Positions 386 through 24,852 of a stretch of DNA of 24,852 nucleotides are shown piece after piece (the stretch's first letter is position 1; each line of letters begins with the position of its first letter). This stretch comes from a virus. The translations under genes were made by a program, and so were the position numbers. The DNA lies in the IMG/VR virus record IMGVR_UViG_3300037258_000104, positions 1-24,852 of that record. One strand, written 5' to 3'. The notes below the pieces were generated by a model. It had not been told where the DNA came from. It did not search any database and was given only the letters and a program-made list of their open reading frames with translations.

Positions 386-472
386 GCCGAAGTGGCGGAA
401 TTGGCAGACGCGCGTGGTTCAGGTCCACGTACTCGCAAGGGTGTGGGGGTTCGAGTCCCTTCTTCGGCACCA
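386..472 (+). tRNA. tRNA-Leu (anticodon CAG), probable phage attachment target
   Basis: The acceptor stem GCCGAAG (386-392) pairs with CTTCGGC (462-468), followed by discriminator A469 and an encoded CCA (470-472). The anticodon stem is CGTGG/CCACG (413-417/425-429) with loop TTCAGGT, giving anticodon CAG at 420-422, which reads CUG (Leu). A long variable arm makes it a class II tRNA, as expected for leucine. The T-arm has a GGGGG stem (two G-U pairs) and the loop TTCGAGT. Phage genes begin shortly downstream and a tyrosine integrase sits at the opposite end, so the 3' part of this tRNA is the likely attB core. The duplicated core expected at the far end is not inside the window. Confidence 0.97.
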
Positions 473-812: not shown

Positions 813-2111
813 CTATCCATTGGAAAGCCGTCGAGGTTCCGCGAAGCGGTGCCCCGTGGCACAAGAAGCCATATAGGCGGTCGAGATGGCGCGGGTAGCA
901 AGCGAATTGCAAGTCCACACCGCTGTCCCGTCCGTGACGGTCGTGGGTGTTGGAGAGGCAACACCGCCTGAATAATTTGGCGTTGGTGTCCCGGTCGTCA
1001 GGCCGGAGGGTACGGAGCTTGCCGTGGTGCCGCTCGTGGTTAGCTGCCAAACCCACGGGCCTGTGCTTGTATTGCTGTCAAGGATGAATGGCTGCGGCCA
1101 ATAGTAGGTGGATGCTGCCCACGCTGGCTCTGCGGCCACGGCAACGGTCTGTACGGTAGGAGCGACCGTGGGTGCCACGATGCCCATGTCCTGTACTGCA
1201 TTGCCCCAACTAATCCAGCCAGCCGTTCCGCCTGTATCAAGCGAGACGCTTTGAACGACCGAGCCGCCTGAAAACACGGTTCCACTCGTGGGCGCTGCGG
1301 TCTGTGTCAAGTCAACAGCGATGCCCGATTCAGCGGTCGTGGAGTAATTCGCCGTGACGTAGGCAGCGGTAAATGAGCCTGTTGTGGAGGTCAGAACTTT
1401 TAGAGTGGCACCATTCAGACCTGTCTTTTGAGTGAGGCCGTAGAACGTAACAGAATCGCCTTGATTGATTGTCCCGGTGCCGCTGTAGTCGATGGTGATG
1501 ATGTTGCTTGAGACACTGGTGCTGACCAGCAGAACGGCATAGCCAAGGCACTCCTGTATGTTGTTCGCGGAGTCGAGAACGCATGTACCGGTAGTGTACG
1601 GAGTGTCAGCAACCCACGACGGGAACCAAGTCCACTTCTTCGTGCTGACGCCATCGCCCCAAAATAAGGAGTTGCCTTCGCCTTTGAGTCGGCTGATGCC
1701 AGCGCCAGCGGCCTTGGTGTACAGAAGGGTCTTACATGGGGTGCCATTGATTGAAGCGACGTAGACCGCTGTGGCGGTGTCTACGATGACCAGAACTTGC
1801 TCACCGACGCTGGATTCAAACGGACGGAAGCTATAGAAATTCACCACGTCGGTGAAGTTGTTGTCATTACAGACCGTGCAACCGGGACGGCGAATGAGAG
1901 TCAGGCGTGGGGATATTTCTGTGTTGAGCCCAGCCGCAATCTTGTCGTTTCTCGCGGCACCGTAAAACTTGAGATAGAGGTACTGCACGGCGGCATCACG
2001 GTATGGCGCGGAGTTCGGCCAGTAGCCGGAGAACAGTTGACTGACAGCAAGGGGTACGGCCTTGTGCGGCTTGTCGTTGTTAGAACCTAAGACTTCAAAT
2101 TGATTGGCCAT
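813..2111 (-). CDS. Nozzle-like phage tail/stabilization protein, C-terminally truncated
   Basis: This 432-aa protein is the last gene of the leftward late operon. The N-terminal part contains 'LTLIRRPGCT' followed by β-rich sequence with 'LFWGDGVSTKKW'. A conserved R-P-G near the start and this kind of blade-like repeat occur in podovirus tail-nozzle and DNA-stabilization proteins, which close the connector after packaging; family assignment is by resemblance only. Residues about 335-403 form a Thr/Gly/Trp-rich module ending TVTDGTAVW that recurs in the next two genes upstream. After it the frame gives 29 unconvincing residues and stops. Nozzle proteins are usually much longer. Another minus-strand frame stays open to 688, so a frameshift or deletion at the prophage edge is possible. 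It starts 2 nt after the TAA of the preceding gene. Confidence 0.55.
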   Translation of the reverse strand: MANQFEVLGSNNDKPHKAVPLAVSQLFSGYWPNSAPYRDAAVQYLYLKFYGAARNDKIAAGLNTEISPRLTLIRRPGCTVCNDNNFTDVVNFYSFRPFESSVGEQVLVIVDTATAVYVASINGTPCKTLLYTKAAGAGISRLKGEGNSLFWGDGVSTKKWTWFPSWVADTPYTTGTCVLDSANNIQECLGYAVLLVSTSVSSNIITIDYSGTGTINQGDSVTFYGLTQKTGLNGATLKVLTSTTGSFTAAYVTANYSTTAESGIAVDLTQTAAPTSGTVFSGGSVVQSVSLDTGGTAGWISWGNAVQDMGIVAPTVAPTVQTVAVAAEPAWAASTYYWPQPFILDSNTSTGPWVWQLTTSGTTASSVPSGLTTGTPTPNYSGGVASPTPTTVTDGTAVWTCNSLATRAISTAYMASCATGHRFAEPRRLSNG

Positions 2112-16867: not shown

Positions 16868-17205
16868 TGACCCATATCACAGCGTCAATCCGTGGCCAGA
16901 TACAGGGGCAGATTTGGATGCCCTGCTGTGTCTGCACTAAACCATTTGCCATTGGCGAAGGTGATTTCCGGTACAGTGACGGTTCTCGGCCATCCCTCCG
17001 CGATATGGTGTTACGCGCAACGAATGATGGGGATTTCCAAGGCGCAGACATAAGCTATGGTTCCCTCCGCCTTGAGATGCGGATACCCCGCAATGATGGA
17101 CAGGGATACACCCGCAAGGTCAGAGAGCTTGACCTTCGCCAGTTTCCCTCCATCGCTGACTGCATTGTTTCCGAAGATGAAATCGAGTATGGGGAGGAAT
17201 TCTGA
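16867..17205 (+). CDS. Hypothetical early phage protein (112 aa)
   Basis: It starts in a TAATG overlap with the preceding gene and ends in a TGATG overlap with the next. There is a C-C-x-C cluster near residue 20 ('MPCCVCTKPF') but only three Cys in total there, so a full zinc site is not obvious. The C-terminus is acidic. Function unknown; the overlaps argue for coordinated expression in the early operon. Confidence 0.65.
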   Translation: MTHITASIRGQIQGQIWMPCCVCTKPFAIGEGDFRYSDGSRPSLRDMVLRATNDGDFQGADISYGSLRLEMRIPRNDGQGYTRKVRELDLRQFPSIADCIVSEDEIEYGEEF

Positions 17206-17597
17206 TGACCATTCGAGAGGCTGCACAACAGGCAATAGACGTGCAAAATGCATGTAACCTTTCCGGGGTTGTGGCAGCGATGCACACAGCCGTTATGGAC
17301 GTTCTCTGGCCTGAGGCTAGGCGCATCGGTCAGGGTACTAGCTGGGTCAACACTCACCCCATTGTGTATCTCTACCTTGACAAGCTGGCGAGTCTGAACG
17401 GTACCCAGTGTCTCTGCTCTGACAATCTCAACAGTTATTCCAAAGCGTATGCCAAGGTTGAGGCTATGGCCACGGCGGAAAATGAGAATAATGGCGTCTG
17501 TCCAAAATGCGGATTGGCTACAGTGAAACCCGATGACCGCAGCCCGTGGCAACATGCTGGAAGCGGAATGATTCTCTGTGAAGGTACTCATTCCTAG
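17205..17597 (+). CDS. Early phage protein with C-terminal metal-binding site (130 aa)
   Basis: Residues 1-95 are helical ('IREAAQQAIDVQNACNLSGV', 'HTAVMDVLWPEARRIGQGT', 'WVNTHPIVYLYLDKLASL'). I recall similar 'AxxAxDVQxACNLSGV ... WVNxHPI' proteins in phage and plasmid early regions, without a known function. The C-terminal 35 residues contain C-P-K-C and a later H/C pair, a possible zinc knuckle. It is the last gene of the four-gene early operon and is followed by a GC hairpin. Confidence 0.7.
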   Translation: MTIREAAQQAIDVQNACNLSGVVAAMHTAVMDVLWPEARRIGQGTSWVNTHPIVYLYLDKLASLNGTQCLCSDNLNSYSKAYAKVEAMATAENENNGVCPKCGLATVKPDDRSPWQHAGSGMILCEGTHS

Positions 17598-17605
17598 CAG
17601 AGTGG

Positions 17606-17626
17606 ACGGGGCGAACCCAGCCCCGT
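17606..17626 (+). terminator. Weak hairpin after the early operon
   Basis: ACGGGGC and GCCCCGT form a perfect 7-bp stem with a 7-nt loop, but only TTAA follows. It is probably an attenuator or partial terminator. The rest of 17598-17753 contains further short GC-rich inverted repeats and no gene. Confidence 0.4.
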
Positions 17627-17753
17627 TTAATGCGGCGTATGCGGTCACAAGCCCCGCATTGTTAGACTGGACAGTCAGCCGTGCCGCACCTTTACGGTAA
17701 GCTGACCGTCTGGGGTGGTACCCGGTGCCGGTACGTAACCCGGCTATATCCCT

Positions 17754-17954: not shown

Positions 17955-17977
17955 TTTCAGCCGGTAGCGTCAATGAG

Positions 17978-18008
17978 CCCCAGCCCTAACCGGCTGGGGT
18001 TTTTCTTT
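17978..18008 (+). terminator. Strong Rho-independent terminator ending the early region
   Basis: CCCCAGCC (17978-17985) and GGCTGGGG (17992-17999) form a perfect 8-bp stem with a 6-nt loop, followed by TTTTTCTTT. It isolates the early operon from the membrane-protein cassette. Confidence 0.9.
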
Positions 18009-18309
18009 GCCTGCCTGATTCCCTGCCCGATGCGGAGTCTGGCCGGTATGCATTTTTGAGGCCAAACGGGTTTTTCCGTCGCCATATCCGAGTAAGGGTA
18101 AAGTTCAAATCTTGAACTTCAAATGCCAAAATCGCGCCCGACAGTACAGTACAAGTAGGGCGATAAAGATTGCTGACCACCCCGGCAAGTCAGCGGAGGG
18201 TTGCGATCTTGGCCGGGGTTGAGGGCGTGGTCGAGTCAGACCCGGTCAGATGCTATTCTGGATGGCATCATTCACAGTTCAAGTAGGCGGACGGAGATAC
18301 AACGCCAAT
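18009..18309. other. Intergenic region before the membrane cassette
   Basis: About 300 bp without a convincing gene. It holds the inverted repeat ACCCCGGC (18179-18186) / GCCGGGGT (18212-18219) around a 25-nt spacer. The promoter for the following two genes should be here, because a strong terminator precedes it, but I cannot assign boxes. The next frame is open from an ATG at 18250, so part of this region may be coding. Confidence 0.35.
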
Positions 18310-19227
18310 ATGAAAAAAGCTCGGCAATTCGTCGCTGGATCAGGGATACTTCTATCCGGAGTGTTCCTCGCCATAGCTCCCGTGCAATGGGATGCTTGGA
18401 GCAAGCACGAATGGGGCATGTCAGGCCATATATCGATTGGCCTCGTCGCGGCGTCTCTCGCCTGTCTCCTTTTTTGGCTATTTATGAAAGACCCTGTGGA
18501 AGCTCCGTCACCACCGCCCATTGTTCCGACCATCGCTGGCAACCAAGTGAATGCCGTGAACAATTCTGGAAACCAAGTCGGCGGAGACAATAGCGGAATG
18601 GTGGTTGGAAGCGTCAACAACCTTTATGTGGCTCGGGCAGTTCCACCGAAGCTCCCTGTAAAACAGTCTGAGCCACAAGTAGAACCAACGCTAATAATCT
18701 CTCAGCCTGAGTCCCGACATTACATCTTTAGAGATGGGCAGTGGTATCCATTTACCTCTGCCGGAACAAGGCATCTCATTGTGAACGTGGAAAACAAGAC
18801 AGCCGAACAAGGACAAATTGCGAAGGACGCCAACGGGGTTGTCGCTTCCGTCGCTTATATCGATAAGGGCAGAAACAAACTCGCCCATGTCTCACGAGCC
18901 TATTGGTGCCGGGAGAGGAGCAACGAAGTGAATCTCGAAATTGGAGCGAGTAAGGAATTGCTCCTCGGCACCCATCTCATGGGTAAGTATTGTTCGACAT
19001 GGATAGGATTCGAGAATTGCTATTCAGCGCCCTCCCGTATCACCCCTCACTACGGGCTCGAAAAGTACCCTACTCCCAAACAAGCACCGTTCGACTTCGT
19101 CGCAATGTTATACATCGAAGTTTCCCTCATTCACGTCCGAACGGGAAAGACTTTCAAGAAGTTCTGCGTTGAGGTAGTGGATAAGGGGAACGGTATGCTG
19201 ACAACTATGACAGTGGGTGGGGTATGA
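18310..19227 (+). CDS. Membrane-anchored protein of unknown function (305 aa), cassette gene 1
   Basis: From the ATG at 18310 the protein has two transmembrane helices (about 8-24 and 40-59), a Pro-rich linker, and a low-complexity Asn/Gly/Val segment (77-106: 'GNQVNAVNNSGNQVGGDNSG' and on) that looks like a short β-helical or spacer repeat. A soluble domain of about 190 residues follows. With a short N-terminal tail the soluble domain should face the cytoplasm, by simple hairpin topology. Upstream in-frame ATGs at 18250 and 18262 are possible; GGAG lies 13 nt before the chosen start. It overlaps the next gene by 4 nt (ATGA). No phage structural or replication family is recognised. Separation by a terminator suggests a moron-type cargo gene, perhaps superinfection exclusion or defence (inference). 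Confidence 0.6.
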   Translation: MKKARQFVAGSGILLSGVFLAIAPVQWDAWSKHEWGMSGHISIGLVAASLACLLFWLFMKDPVEAPSPPPIVPTIAGNQVNAVNNSGNQVGGDNSGMVVGSVNNLYVARAVPPKLPVKQSEPQVEPTLIISQPESRHYIFRDGQWYPFTSAGTRHLIVNVENKTAEQGQIAKDANGVVASVAYIDKGRNKLAHVSRAYWCRERSNEVNLEIGASKELLLGTHLMGKYCSTWIGFENCYSAPSRITPHYGLEKYPTPKQAPFDFVAMLYIEVSLIHVRTGKTFKKFCVEVVDKGNGMLTTMTVGGV

Positions 19228-19871
19228 CCCCAGACCAAATAGCATTCTGGACTTTCGTTGTCAGCATCGTTGCTGCTCTAGCGGCAATAGTGGCAATCTT
19301 CGTCGGGCTCCGTGCGATTTACTACGCCAAACAGGCTCCCACGACTGAAGACCTTAGGCGAGTCGAAAAGAACACCGCTGAAACGTCGCGGCACCTTGAG
19401 GGTATGCACGGCAAGATTGCCAGCATGGACACCCGCCTCGACCAGCAAGCGGAACATGACACACTCGTCTCACGGGCTAATCGCGTTTCTACTCTTATCG
19501 AAGGCGAAGATTTAGTCGGGAATTGTCTTTCCATCCGCCTCACGCTAAAAGACCCCAAAGTCACCTTGATACGCCTTGACCTGTTGAATGAGCGAGGTAT
19601 TGTCTTTGGGTCTCCTGATTGCGAAGCGACCGCATACCTTCAATTCACCGCGACCATTGACCCGGCCACGATTTTAAAGTGGTTCGATGGCGGGACAATA
19701 ACTGTAGCCGGATGGTCGGCGAGGTCTCAACTCGGTCTCCGCGTTCACATGTTGGTCAGCGGAAACAATGTCCATCGGCAGGTTGCGGTGATCCTGTACC
19801 GTGCGAACCAATCAGACCCGGCCAACCCACTCGTCCGGCATCAGGTCTGGAGGATCGAAGGCAGCGTCTAA
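19224..19871 (+). CDS. Single-pass membrane protein (215 aa), cassette gene 2
   Basis: There is one N-terminal transmembrane helix (about 8-34: 'FWTFVVSIVAALAAIVAIFV'), a charged coiled-coil segment (about 40-85), then a soluble β-rich domain of about 125 residues. It begins inside the stop codon of the preceding gene (ATGA), so the two are translationally coupled and likely act together in the membrane. Known families with TM plus coiled coil plus sensor domains exist in defence and exclusion systems, but I cannot assign one. No counterpart is needed for virion formation, supporting an accessory role. Confidence 0.65.
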   Translation: MTPDQIAFWTFVVSIVAALAAIVAIFVGLRAIYYAKQAPTTEDLRRVEKNTAETSRHLEGMHGKIASMDTRLDQQAEHDTLVSRANRVSTLIEGEDLVGNCLSIRLTLKDPKVTLIRLDLLNERGIVFGSPDCEATAYLQFTATIDPATILKWFDGGTITVAGWSARSQLGLRVHMLVSGNNVHRQVAVILYRANQSDPANPLVRHQVWRIEGSV

Positions 19872-20075: not shown

Positions 20076-20118
20076 CCCACGTTATCACTAATAGAATCAA
20101 CACCAGCCGCTCAGCCCG

Positions 20119-20228
20119 TGAACAGTGCGTTCAATAGGCGAACAGTGCGTTCATTACGTGAACAGTGCGTTCAATAGGCGAACGGTGTGTTCATTAGGCG
20201 AACACGCCACTGTTCAATAGGCGAACAC
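20119..20228 (+). repeat. Iteron array (20-bp direct repeats), putative replication origin
   Basis: The unit GAACAGTGCGTTCAWTASGY recurs at an exact 20-bp period: AACAGTGCGTTCA at 20121, 20141 and 20161, and AACGGTGTGTTCA at 20181. A diverged fifth unit (GAACACGCCACTGTTC, with the CACTGTTC half inverted) and a terminal GCGAACAC half-site follow to 20228. Each unit is itself a GAAC-N5-GTTC dyad. Iterons in front of a rep gene are the hallmark of Rep-protein origins of plasmids and some phages. The next genes are an HTH protein and a winged-helix initiator-like protein. The same sites may also autoregulate those genes. Confidence 0.85.
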
Positions 20229-20341: not shown

Positions 20342-20542
20342 ATGACCGTAAGAGACACCCGCACTGAGGCCCGCACAAAGATTGCCGAATACTTAAAGGC
20401 TCACCCCGAGGTCAGCTACAAAGAGCTTGCTGCCAAGCTCGGCTGTGCTGCCTCCACCATTGCCACCATCGCTCATAAGGCCGGTATCGTCCGCCAGCGG
20501 AAAGCTCTCAATCTAGCCGACGTATCCAAGCTGGAGGGATAA
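20342..20542 (+). CDS. Small HTH DNA-binding protein (66 aa)
   Basis: Residues about 9-52 form a helix-turn-helix ('IAEYLKAHPEVSYKELAAKL', then 'GCAASTIATIAHKAGIVRQR') of the winged or AsnC-like N-terminal type, with the recognition helix around STIATIAHKAG. There is no effector domain. RBS AGAGGAG lies 7 nt before the ATG. It sits between the palindromes/iterons and the replication-initiator-like gene (3-nt gap), so it is probably a repressor or co-activator of that operon, or a copy-number control protein. Function inferred from fold and position. Confidence 0.75.
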   Translation: MTVRDTRTEARTKIAEYLKAHPEVSYKELAAKLGCAASTIATIAHKAGIVRQRKALNLADVSKLEG

Positions 20543-20545
20543 GCT

Positions 20546-21235
20546 ATGTCCTTCCGGTACACCGACGCGGTGAACAGACTCAACAAGACCGGGGAGTGCT
20601 GTGCGTTCTGCGGCATTGAGTTCACTGGCGGCAAGATAGTCCAGCGAAGGAACAAGAATGGCTTGTACATTGAGCATGTCCAAACCGGCCATGAGGAATT
20701 GCTCGAACACAGCAAGACGCATCCATACGGTGCGGTGGAGAGGACCGTATTACTCCAGTTAGCCGAACACGCGAACGATGAGGGGGGATGCTTTCCGGGC
20801 TATACCCTGCTACACGAAGAGACCTATCTCTCCAAGGGAGCCATCTCCGAGGCCATCGGCAATCTGGTCGAGCTTGGCCTAATCTCCATTGTCGAGAAAG
20901 GTAGACGCCGTTCAACCACCTACCTGTTGAACATCAATCCCAACCCCCAAGCCCCGGTGACAGCCTTGCTCAAAAGACCGAAGCCCATCGAGAAGCCCAA
21001 GCCGTTCAACATCGAAGAAGAGGATGAGGACGACTTCGATTACTACGATAATTTTCCTCATGAGCCGGTCGCTCACGCGCGTGTGCAACCACCACGAGCC
21101 TCGGTGCCGACCTCCGTCCCACCACAGGCGAGGGTGCCGGATACACATGTATGCCGAGACTGCGGCGACAGTTTTCTTGGAGGGTTTGCCTACGGCCAGC
21201 ACCGCCTAAGTGCCCACCCGGTGCTTCGCTCTTGA
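20546..21235 (+). CDS. Winged-helix replication initiator-like protein with C2H2 finger (229 aa)
   Basis: The N-terminus contains C-C-x2-C (18-22) with C19/C22 as a possible metal pair. Residues about 62-128 are a winged helix ('AVERTVLLQLAEHANDEGGC', 'LSKGAISEAIGNLVELGLIS', 'EKGRRRSTTYLL') of the HTH_36 type found in phage O-like and plasmid initiators. An acidic linker (157-169) and a Pro-rich stretch lead to a C-terminal C2H2 finger with C203, C206, H219 and H224. RBS GGAGG is 8 nt before the ATG. Following an iteron array, it is the best candidate for the origin-binding initiator. It lacks a helicase or primase domain, so it would recruit host factors. Confidence 0.7.
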   Translation: MSFRYTDAVNRLNKTGECCAFCGIEFTGGKIVQRRNKNGLYIEHVQTGHEELLEHSKTHPYGAVERTVLLQLAEHANDEGGCFPGYTLLHEETYLSKGAISEAIGNLVELGLISIVEKGRRRSTTYLLNINPNPQAPVTALLKRPKPIEKPKPFNIEEEDEDDFDYYDNFPHEPVAHARVQPPRASVPTSVPPQARVPDTHVCRDCGDSFLGGFAYGQHRLSAHPVLRS

Positions 21236-21681
21236 GCGCCTGCTGACTAAACTGAGACCGGCGGCGGTAGAGCCTTCTGGTTTTTTCCCGGTGAAAAGGG
21301 CGACCCCGCATTGCTCAAGGCCACCGTCAGCGAGGACTTCATTCCATAACTTGAGCAAGTAACCTCATCGTAACGCGGAGACTCGCGACATCTGTCGCGA
21401 CTTACGTATACGGAGGCGGATGGAGTTATAGGGAAAATGTTAGGAAATTATTTCCGGCGTTAAGAACTAATTTGAAAGGAGTAACATCATGATGCACTCA
21501 ATGCTCGTGGGAACGTCTTAGGACCATAATATGCGTTGTGCCCAGTGTTTATGCGGGAATTAGCGAGTAACAGTATTAGCGAGTACTAAATAATCATACG
21601 AGTCGAAATACAATCATCGGTATCATATGTATGTGGACATTGACGGAATTACAAGGTCAAGACCGCATTGGAGACACTTAC
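21236..21681 (+). promoter_or_regulatory. Regulatory region upstream of the Mom-like gene
   Basis: About 445 bp without a full gene but dense in symmetric elements: TTGCTCAAG/CTTGAGCAA (21311-21319/21350-21358), TCGCGAC-ATCT-GTCGCGA (21383-21400), the palindrome GGAAATTATTTCC (21443-21455), and the 11-bp direct repeat ATTAGCGAGTA at 21559-21569 and 21575-21585 (16-bp step). CTTACGTATAC (21401) resembles the TTACGTAA sites near 20280. The architecture suggests tight control of the following operon. Confidence 0.5.
21489..21521 (+). CDS. Possible 10-aa leader peptide
   Basis: MMHSMLVGTS is preceded by a strong ribosome-binding site (AAAGGAG, 7 nt before ATG) and ends at TAG 21519. It is too short for any protein-level test. 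A real ribosome-binding site in an otherwise regulatory stretch makes a leader peptide plausible; chance is the alternative. Confidence 0.25.
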   Translation: MMHSMLVGTS

Positions 21682-21726
21682 ATGGCAAAGCAAGTAACAA
21701 CATCACCGTGGGTTCCGGTAAGCTAA
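21682..21726 (+). CDS. Mini-ORF (14 aa) overlapping the Mom-like gene start
   Basis: MAKQVTTSPWVPVS has GGAG 8 nt before its ATG, and its TAA overlaps the next ATG (TAATG). That arrangement is identical to the overlaps between early genes here and predicts translational coupling. The frame is also open upstream to an ATG at 21631 (31 aa) without a ribosome-binding site. Confidence 0.45.
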   Translation: MAKQVTTSPWVPVS

Positions 21727-23099
21727 TGCCGCCGATTACCCTCGTCTCGGAGGACATCCTCGCTCGGTACACGGCTCTCGATGCCAAGCTGACCAGCAGT
21801 ACGCGTAAGTGGGTCAAGCAATGGGAGGCGGACATACCGTTGCTGGCAGAGATGCAAACGTTGTTAGGGCAGCGTAGCTCCATGCGTGTGCAGGATATGC
21901 CGGAGAGTTGGACATCGTGGTTCAATTCGTTTGTTGAGGGCACTGGGTTCCCGCTGTCCCTGCGGCAGGTGCAGCGCAAGATCGCTATGCTGCGTGGAGA
22001 CGCACCCGCCACCCCGGCAGAGGAACCGAAGGAACTCCCCGAGGAGAGGCTCTTGGCGGAGGCACGGGAGCAGTTCGGAGCAGCGGCTGCGGCGGGCAAC
22101 GAGCAAGCCATCGCCATCATTGCTGACTATGCGCAGCGGCTGGCAGACGCAGAGGACACCGAGGAAGCCAAGCAGAACATCAACGTGGTCGCTGTTGAGA
22201 TGACCCGCCGTCTGCAATCCGTGGCAACGCGCAGGAACGAGATGAACCCGAGTGTCAGGACAAATCTAATCGCTGCGATGCGCACCACGTTGGAGTTATT
22301 GGAGGCGGACTTTCAGCAGCCGGTGGCCACCGGCAAATGTCACCAACGTTTGGTGCGTGAGCACATGGCTACGTTGCCTGACCCCGACCTTGAGGCAAAG
22401 ATGGCAGTGTCTGCGGATTTCTCACTCGCCAGCGTGAGAGAGATTAGCTACGAGGAGGCTCAGACGGTCATCTTGAGCAATGAATACTTGGGGACGATGG
22501 GCTCCGTCAGCCACTCGTACGGGCTCTACTTCGGCCAGTTTTTGGGTGGCTGCGTCTGCTTGGGGTCCACCGCCGGGACAGGCACAAGCATGTTGTGTGG
22601 TGACACGCACCAAGACAAGGTGACGACCATCGTCAGGGGAGCTTGCTTGCCGTGGACTCCGGTCAATTCCGCCACGTATCTGGACGCTAAGGCTTGCAAG
22701 CAGATGGCCAAGTATGGCAAGCACATCTTCATCAGCTACAGCGACCCGGCTGGAGGCGAGGTTGGCACTATCTACTCCGCCATCAATCATCTGTACTGCG
22801 GCATGACAACACCGACTGAGAGGTACCGCTGGCATGGCCGGGTCTACGATGGGCGTCAAGTAAGCGGTATGGCCAGAGACCGCACTGGCGGGACTCTAAA
22901 GATGAGGCGTAGCAGAGCGCAACAGAAGGCGTTGCTCATTGAGCAGGGTGCCGAGTTTTTCCTTGGCAACGCCAAGCATCGGTGGGTTGGATTCTACGGC
23001 TCCCCCGGCCTGAAGAAGACGCTGAGGGCGGCTCTGACATGGGACGTGGAGACGGCACTACCTAAGCGGGAATCGCAACAGGAGACACTTGCAGCGTAA
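21726..23099 (+). CDS. Mom-like GNAT-fold protein fused to a helical N-terminal domain (457 aa)
   Basis: Start chosen at ATG 21726 because of the TAATG coupling; the frame opens from 21627. The N-terminal about 100 residues contain 'LSLRQVQRKIAMLRG' (77-91), like the DNA-binding helices of replication/ParB-like or DUF3102-type proteins. A long Ala/Glu-rich coiled coil follows (about 100-200). The C-terminal part (about 235-427) resembles phage Mu Mom and relatives: 'SVSHSYGLYFGQFLGGCVCL', 'RGACLPWTPVNSATYL', 'FISYSDPAGGEVGTIYSAIN', and an end segment 'KHRWVGFYG' like the usual K-x-R-Y/W-V-x-F. Mom modifies adenine in phage DNA and blocks restriction enzymes. The assignment is from remembered motifs, not a search; another GNAT role is possible. 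Confidence 0.5.
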   Translation: MPPITLVSEDILARYTALDAKLTSSTRKWVKQWEADIPLLAEMQTLLGQRSSMRVQDMPESWTSWFNSFVEGTGFPLSLRQVQRKIAMLRGDAPATPAEEPKELPEERLLAEAREQFGAAAAAGNEQAIAIIADYAQRLADAEDTEEAKQNINVVAVEMTRRLQSVATRRNEMNPSVRTNLIAAMRTTLELLEADFQQPVATGKCHQRLVREHMATLPDPDLEAKMAVSADFSLASVREISYEEAQTVILSNEYLGTMGSVSHSYGLYFGQFLGGCVCLGSTAGTGTSMLCGDTHQDKVTTIVRGACLPWTPVNSATYLDAKACKQMAKYGKHIFISYSDPAGGEVGTIYSAINHLYCGMTTPTERYRWHGRVYDGRQVSGMARDRTGGTLKMRRSRAQQKALLIEQGAEFFLGNAKHRWVGFYGSPGLKKTLRAALTWDVETALPKRESQQETLAA

Positions 23100-23670: not shown

Positions 23671-24852
23671 CTACGCCCCCGCGAAGGCGGCGTTGCAAGC
23701 GTTCTGGAGTACCGACATCCCCGCTGGCTTCAAGTACCGCTCCGTCGTTTCCAACCTTGAGTGACCTGCAAGCAACTGGACATCACGGCTGTTGACATGG
23801 CTAAGCATGGTTGTCATATACGTAGCGCGAAACGTCTTGAGCTTCGCCTTGGAGCATTCATTCTTTTGGACGCATTTGGGGCAACGACCGCAGTTGAGAC
23901 CCGCTTGCCGCCAATCACTCTTGAGCGCCTTGAGCAGCTTGATGTCAGGCCGGTCGCTCTTCGTGCCGAACACAAACCGGGACTTGGGGAATTTCAGCCG
24001 GTGCGCTTTCAGTTCGGCCAGCAACGCGGCGGGAATCGGGATGTCACGCTCCTCGGAATCCTTGCTCTTCCATTCGAGTTCGAGGTTCCACGGATAGGAG
24101 CCCTTCGACTTGAACCTTACCTTCCAAATGGACTTGTCAAAGTCCACATCCGGCCATTCACCGTAAGCAAGCTCTTCATCGCGGAGGCCTAGGTTCCAAT
24201 AGGCAGTCCAGATGAGCCGGTGCCGTTCAGACGCGACTTCCAAGACTGCCTTAATTTGGTCAGGCGAGTAGGTATCGACCGCCAGCTTCGGCTTGAGCTT
24301 GAGCTTTTTATGTTCCGAGGCGGAGATTGCTTTGTTGGGATCGAGACCGGCGTGTTTGAGGAAGCACCGGACGTACCCGTACCGGGTCGCCCTCGTGTTC
24401 TTCTTGTTCCCGAGCGACTCAAGGTGACGGTCGAAGGCAATCACATCGTCCTCGTTAATCTCCGAACTCTTGGACTTGCCGCGCCGGTAGAGCATACTCA
24501 CGAACTCGGAGCCGACGTAGTTGTACGCATAGATGGTGTCGGCGGAACCATGCGCGAACTTTTCGATGTAGGTCGTGAGAAGGGTGCCGAGGGCTTTCGG
24601 CTCTTCCTTCTTCTCCGGCTCCGGCACCCCGAGGCTCTGCCGGAGTTTGGTGGTGGCGAATTCCTTGAGCATCGCCTGAGCGGGTTCGAGTTCGTTGCCC
24701 ACCGACTTGTACACTACTTTTCCGCCCTGATAGAACCGGATTTGGAAGACGCCGACCTTCGCGTCAACCTCTTCGCCGTTGTAGAACATCACGCCCGGTT
24801 TGATTTTTCCATTCTTGGAAGATTGAACAAGTGAGCCCCGCCGCCAGCCAAG
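23671..24852 (-). CDS. int: Tyrosine recombinase / phage integrase (N-terminus beyond the window)
   Basis: The C-terminal catalytic domain shows the Arg I box 'GLRDEEL', the β-hairpin Lys in 'WKSKDSEERDIPIP', the Arg II box 'LKTFRATYMTTML', 'LLAGHSRLETTERYL' with H/W-position His and the nucleophilic Tyr of ERYL. The usual His of the H-x-x-R box is Lys here (K-T-F-R). A Cys-rich insertion (C-x2-C-x2-C-x5-C: CGRCPKCVQKNEC) before this box may bind zinc; I recall it from acidobacterial integrases. The middle part is the SAM-like core-binding domain. A GTG at 24792 could start it, but the frame stays open for all 20 codons to base 24852 (LGWRRGSLVQSSKNGKIKPG) with plausible integrase-like sequence, so the true start is probably outside. 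It mediates integration, presumably at tRNA-Leu. Confidence 0.92.
   Translation of the reverse strand, partial: LGWRRGSLVQSSKNGKIKPGVMFYNGEEVDAKVGVFQIRFYQGGKVVYKSVGNELEPAQAMLKEFATTKLRQSLGVPEPEKKEEPKALGTLLTTYIEKFAHGSADTIYAYNYVGSEFVSMLYRRGKSKSSEINEDDVIAFDRHLESLGNKKNTRATRYGYVRCFLKHAGLDPNKAISASEHKKLKLKPKLAVDTYSPDQIKAVLEVASERHRLIWTAYWNLGLRDEELAYGEWPDVDFDKSIWKVRFKSKGSYPWNLELEWKSKDSEERDIPIPAALLAELKAHRLKFPKSRFVFGTKSDRPDIKLLKALKSDWRQAGLNCGRCPKCVQKNECSKAKLKTFRATYMTTMLSHVNSRDVQLLAGHSRLETTERYLKPAGMSVLQNACNAAFAGA

Follow-up and report, generated by a model that had tools for sequence, protein, structure and literature searches.

The stretch of DNA analysed here, referred to as the window, comprises 24,852 bases and represents an entire virus contig. 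Two overlapping genes, designated A and B in this report, lie between its early operon and its replication region. The question raised by this locus is whether the pair represents a new two-component membrane defence system, as proposed in a preliminary description made from the sequence, or accessory cargo of the virus. By its sequence the window is a prophage residing in a tRNA-Leu gene of an Acidobacteriota host, a soil bacterium. Similarity to many host genomes spans the tRNA-Leu and about 80 bases upstream of it and ends near position 472, at the 3' end of the tRNA, and the integrase gene is located at the other end of the window (for the coordinates see Table 1). Exact matches to the tRNA core were found in 48 stretches, the titles of which are nearly all of Acidobacteria or a subgroup thereof, except for two MAGs named Rhodanobacteraceae and Formivibrio. 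The structural genes are on the minus strand and the early and replication genes on the plus strand, and identity to the Tunturiibacter phage Tunturi_3 was 34% for TerL, 42% for the portal and 57% for the major head protein. Tunturi_3 is a podovirus of an Acidobacteriota host (PMC11924767).

Two other genes of the prophage are described here for completeness. The homolog of a tail/decoration protein close to the tRNA comprises the N-terminal part only, with 432 amino acids where three relatives have 1037, 1136 and 1234. It stops about 340 bases short of the attachment end at the tRNA; on that side the prophage looks truncated. A protein of 490 amino acids carries a C-terminal Mom-like DNA modification domain (PF25680, E 2.9e-16) behind a long N-terminal part without clear match, and has one viral relative (in L098, 40%).

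Table 1. Location of the features discussed in the text within the 24,852-base window.
Feature	Position	Strand	Remarks
tRNA-Leu	386-472		integration site
Tail/decoration protein homolog	813-2111	-	N-terminal part only
ORF ending at the twister ribozyme	17205-17597		
Type-P5 twister ribozyme	17596-17657	+	Rfam RF02684, 52.9 bits, full length
Terminator-like hairpin	17975-18002	+	11 pairs, T-rich tail; between early operon and cassette
Cassette leader	18009-18309		about 300 bases, taking 18310 as the gene A start
Operator-like palindrome	18103-18117		GTTCAAATCTTGAAC; in cassette leader; fits array pattern GTTC-N7-GAAC
Degenerate array unit	18277-18292	+	edit distance 2; 17 bases before gene A start
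Gene A	18310-19227	+	305 aa; from ORF, translation, hydropathy, codon usage, relatives
Overlap of genes A and B	19224-19227		ATGA
Gene B	19224-19871	+	215 aa; from ORF, translation, hydropathy, AF2 helices, relatives
Repeat array	20109-20226		6 palindromic repeats, 20-23 base spacing; upstream of HTH and replication genes
HTH protein	20342-20542	+	66 aa; directly after array; weak HTH matches
Replication initiation O-like protein	20546-21235	+	PHROG 391, E 1e-12
Mom-like protein	21627-23099	+	490 aa
Integrase	23671-24792		opposite end of window from tRNA-Leu

Genes A and B are real genes on the plus strand, each with the read frame scoring best of six frames in codon usage, and the ATGA overlap of the gene A stop with the gene B start is evident in both ORF and translation. 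The cassette is shorter than the range 18009-19871 originally assigned to it: the start of gene A is most likely 18310 because its relatives begin there, and position 18009 thus falls within the leader. The membrane topology was recovered as first described. Hydropathy analysis placed two N-terminal transmembrane (TM) segments in protein A, at residues about 6-26 and 36-61, followed by an Asn/Gly/Val-rich spacer (about 76-106) and a soluble domain of about 170 amino acids, predicted to be beta-rich; protein B has a single TM segment at residues about 4-36, then a coiled coil and a soluble domain likewise predicted to be beta-rich. From the charge pattern (N-terminus +3 and loop -1 for protein A; N-terminus -1 and +2 after the TM segment for protein B), both soluble domains are predicted to face the cytoplasm under the positive-inside rule. 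Structure prediction of the soluble domains, called for in the preliminary description, was carried out by AF2 with the window sequence alone as input, without relatives, and gave no usable model, the mean pLDDT being 30.7 for the A domain, in which strands were predicted but at pLDDT below 50, and 48.9 for protein B. Within protein B solely the N-terminal helices are reliable; its first 30 residues showed a block mean pLDDT above 90, giving a confident TM helix and the start of the coiled coil. Profile comparison of the two soluble domains returned a probability of 0.2% and hence no evidence of kinship.

In order to identify the families to which the two proteins belong, sequence libraries were searched with both. 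Neither protein has a match in Pfam at the curated cut-off, in PADLOC or among the phage core families, nor a relevant match in PDB, and NCBIfam returned nothing worth naming (RdrB came closest, at E 0.099 and well below the cut-off of that model). The TM/coiled-coil portion of protein B has a match to PHROG 6169 (E 5e-4), a family without assigned function. No match to A or B was found in 50,697 phage records, Tunturi_3 included (E up to 1), or in 72,556 plasmid records (E up to 0.1). Back-translated patterns and a search of GTDB contigs, methods that reach close relatives only, detected no viral relative, and 14 related viral contigs gave no match in the stretches covered, the closest contig ending near TerL, before the slot of the cassette; none of the 10 records searched over their full length matched gene B. 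This absence of family matches is the sole support for the initial statement that the pair plays no evident role in virion or replication. No title or abstract start describing this gene pair was found in the literature, which is not proof of absence.

Relatives of both genes were found in host-type genomes only. The main search covered 347 genomes of one order. For gene A, 10 genomes matched at E 0.01 or below, of which 8 were retained after their frames had been read (G072, G038, G009, G294, G326, G116, G288 and G208; E 1e-16 to 7e-4). The other two, G268 and G150, were set aside because stop codons interrupt the frame that matched. A second place in G288, an amidohydrolase-like frame, was discounted too. 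The aligned relatives of gene A have two TM segments, linker and soluble domain in common and are 18-28% identical to protein A in the various alignments; the exception is the L079 frame, which as aligned is without the first TM segment. For gene B, 6 genomes matched and 3 were retained (G234, with an internal stop, G208 and G150; E 3e-21 to 5e-9), after removal of an ATP synthase b-type subunit (G214) and a match to the TM segment only (G168), while a secreted protein of doubtful kinship (G030, E 0.0018) was left out of the count. A match in G019 (E 0.078) was likewise not counted. The closest relative of gene B is the one that carries an internal stop, and gene B can therefore be lost. When profiles were run against 396 genomes of the phylum, two further gene A relatives emerged (G426 and G585), a third match (G581) being dropped for a stop inside its 57-codon frame, and no gene B relative. 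A family-level sample of 124 genomes yielded no new relative of either gene, with G234 recurring and the G214 match again an ATP synthase subunit. The true sequence relatives of A and B are uncharacterised membrane proteins of Acidobacteriota with two and one TM segments, respectively. Their genes stand singly in the chromosome, whereas in the prophage the two form one overlapping pair.

The pairing of A and B was not conserved among these relatives. Only one genome (G208) carries both families, on the separate contigs C55 and C333, and in none of the genomes or neighbourhoods read did the two stand side by side. Comparison of three gene B sequences with the 10 gene A loci produced nothing at E 0.05, and in the opposite direction, covering 3 loci, a single chance-like match appeared (E 0.012), inside the stretch of another gene. 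The search for a conserved neighbourhood, proposed at the outset as a check, failed to reveal any in the loci read. Most relatives stand alone among housekeeping genes, Pfam neighbours being mostly of the type of squalene-hopene cyclase, citrate synthase, LytB and polyprenyl synthetase. Among 96 neighbouring ORFs of the 10 loci, some of which are spurious because a simple longest-ORF picker was used, 7 PADLOC families were detected at E 1e-5, each in one ORF. The proposal of a new two-component membrane defence system was thus not borne out: neither protein has a PADLOC match, and the relatives occur singly and mostly in housekeeping contexts, the very finding that the preliminary description had named as contrary to it. 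Passage on an IS1595 transposon was also considered and rejected, since transposases were located near 2 of the 10 relatives but no bounding inverted repeats were found.

A few neighbourhoods are of a different kind. In L075 a PIN-domain toxin-type gene precedes the gene A relative, and two distant relatives of gene A adjoin conflict-type genes, one facing a gene for a DUF4062/TPR/GYF protein (L113, 3872-7088) and the other among HNH and DUF4238 genes (L114, 2978-8757); because of these two, we keep in view that the gene A family may have a role in conflict. In both G208 and G326, the gene A relative is situated beside a response regulator gene and genes that we take to be uvrB and ccmF, the latter also by Pfam. 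The products of uvrB, the response regulator gene and ccmF are 91%, 57% and 82% identical between the two genomes, respectively; the best alignment of the two gene A relatives covers 55 residues at 24% identity. This divergence is suggestive of rapid change or replacement, although one pair is not proof. The relatives on the uvrB side (L120, 6405-7547; L077, 6775-8298) can hardly be aligned with each other, and a second copy of the soluble domain appears to be present in L077.

We then examined the sequences that could control the cassette, which lies between the terminator-like hairpin and the repeat array and has a leader in which no sigma-70-like promoter passed the scan. The claim that a strong terminator insulates the cassette from the early operon held in part: the hairpin is present and has the most pairs of all sites detected, but the scan in total gave 8 sites versus 6.4 +/- 2.8 in shuffles. 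Upstream of this hairpin, the twister ribozyme begins at the stop codon of the preceding ORF and constitutes a self-cleaving motif within the phage early transcript; a search of 10 related loci, viral or prophage, yielded none that reached the gathering score. The repeat array is a candidate for origin iterons, an operator, or both, and two sites resembling it were detected in the cassette leader. The exact pattern GTTC-N7-GAAC occurs 6 times in the window versus 0.45 expected, five times in the array and once in the leader palindrome, and with an array-derived matrix this palindrome was the top site outside the array, narrowly (11.3 versus 10.6 and 10.5). The other site, a degenerate array unit, was the sole match in the window with 2 or fewer edits outside the array, as determined by full edit-distance scoring. 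The exact form GTTCA-N5-TGAAC appeared in 2 of 5000 leader shuffles and a match to the array unit at that edit distance or less in 4 of 1500, figures that are optimistic because the motifs were chosen after looking. The presence of both sites in the leader suggests that the cassette and the replication region may be under shared control, for which the 66-residue HTH protein and the O-like protein would be candidate binders. What these data add is this combination of an array-like palindrome and a degenerate array copy in the leader of the cassette.

How, then, can the pair be explained? As a conserved defence system, protein B would sense and protein A would act on the membrane. The ATGA coupling fits this, as do the conflict-type genes and the PIN-domain toxin-type gene next to relatives of gene A, the high divergence of the two uvrB-side relatives, and the predicted 2TM plus beta-rich architecture, which recalls the S-2TMbeta effectors, such as Cap15 of CBASS and OptE of Panoptes (PMC12657218). 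Protein A resembles these two in having two N-terminal TM segments and then a predicted soluble beta-rich domain, but differs in the Asn/Gly linker that separates this domain from the TM segments. Up to E 1, neither Pfam nor PADLOC gave a match to the S-2TMbeta family, in libraries that may be without such a model; a PDB profile search returned MglB alone, at 0.97, and PADLOC detected no nucleotide synthase among 10 window proteins, 8 of them from the early or replication region. With no gene B relative in any of the 10 gene A loci at E 0.05 or below, the two families on separate contigs in the one genome sharing them, no PADLOC match and mainly housekeeping neighbours, we consider a conserved defence system improbable. 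Another reading takes A and B as a membrane anchor that tethers the replicating phage genome near the origin array. The p16.7 protein of phi29 has an N-terminal TM segment, a coiled coil and a C-terminal domain, a layout shared by protein B, and its gene is an early gene tied to replication, in which A and B may also be likened to it. It organises membrane-associated phage DNA replication (PMC11476376). The position of the cassette, immediately ahead of the array and the O-like gene, would suit such a role, as would the array-like sites in the leader. The relatives of A and B, unlike p16.7, are chromosomal singletons without replication genes, and phmmer of protein B against PDB chains, the solved p16.7 chains included, gave nothing relevant at E 1, which makes a replication anchor hard to credit.

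Lysis genes, with A as holin or pinholin and B as Rz-like spanin, were likewise considered, in view of the combination of a 2TM protein with a 1TM/coiled-coil protein and a weak match to PHROG 739 (Rz-like spanin, E 0.1). Both proteins are large for these roles, the C-terminus is predicted from the charge pattern to be cytoplasmic and not periplasmic, no endolysin was recognised nearby, and no lysis genes were noticed alongside the chromosomal relatives; on size, predicted orientation and relatives the lysis cassette was ruled out as very improbable. The pair might instead be a neutral passenger of a decaying prophage, having no present function, to which the shortened tail protein and the broken best relative of gene B would correspond. 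This we hold to be unlikely, though less so than a lytic role, as both frames are intact with coding-like codon usage and the array-like sites are kept in the leader.

The explanation that we favour, at about even chance, is a prophage cargo (moron) unit of two translationally coupled proteins anchored in the inner membrane. Cargo is plausible because the cassette is preceded by a terminator-like hairpin, lacks phage-core matches and has relatives in host-type genomes only, and relatives among host genes are what a moron should have; of the profile originally drawn, this part stands, and the two-component defence part is unsupported. The gene pair is real and ordinary in kind: cargo of a prophage, from families as yet unknown, for which the leader sites hint at a regulatory link. 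Its most likely source is the accessory genes of the Acidobacteriota hosts, from which the prophage would have taken A and B into the space separating early operon and replication region, where the array-binding factor might also control them. The pair may then alter the inner membrane of the lysogen so that the entry or establishment of incoming phage DNA is hindered. The cargo reading is much firmer than this functional step: superinfection exclusion or another fitness effect is our guess, held well short of even chance, with phage exclusion, again as a guess, the likeliest single function.

In such a role the pair would resemble exclusion of the P22 SieA type, SieA being a prophage inner membrane protein able to block DNA entry (PMC10883804). 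The likeness lies in the carriage of inner membrane protein by a prophage and in the proposed effect on phage DNA entry; the pair differs in that two proteins are present instead of one and their exclusion is putative, and neither A nor B has a sequence match to SieA or other exclusion families. A more elaborate form of the idea, in which the 2TM/beta-domain proteins of Acidobacteriota are a fast-diversifying, membrane-anchored conflict family and the prophage joined a member of it with a second membrane protein under sites of its replication initiator or repressor, making an exclusion device wired to the origin and switched together with the start or block of phage replication, appears to us a long shot.

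Acidobacteriota are abundant in soils but, to our knowledge, their phages have received little study. Were the cassette to act in exclusion, its genes, sites and candidate regulators would make it an example open to experiment. Otherwise the case still indicates that two membrane genes may overlap in a prophage without belonging to a conserved system, and it defines two small uncharacterised host protein families, of which one may be diverging unusually rapidly beside uvrB.

Host LexA was also considered as the binder of the cassette sites. It is an unlikely one because GTTC-N7-GAAC was found in one of 10 host lexA loci (L106), far from the gene start, and because a distinct TTCGC-type repeat precedes the gene in the 5 loci with the start on the strand read; the promoter reading covered these 5 loci, the other 5 being on the opposite strand. 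The repeat common to these lexA start regions, ATTCGCTTTTT(C/A)TTCGCTA(T/C)AAT, is located at about 1450-1500 in L103, L106, L107, L108 and L111, and is perhaps the LexA box of this lineage, placed over a -10 element.
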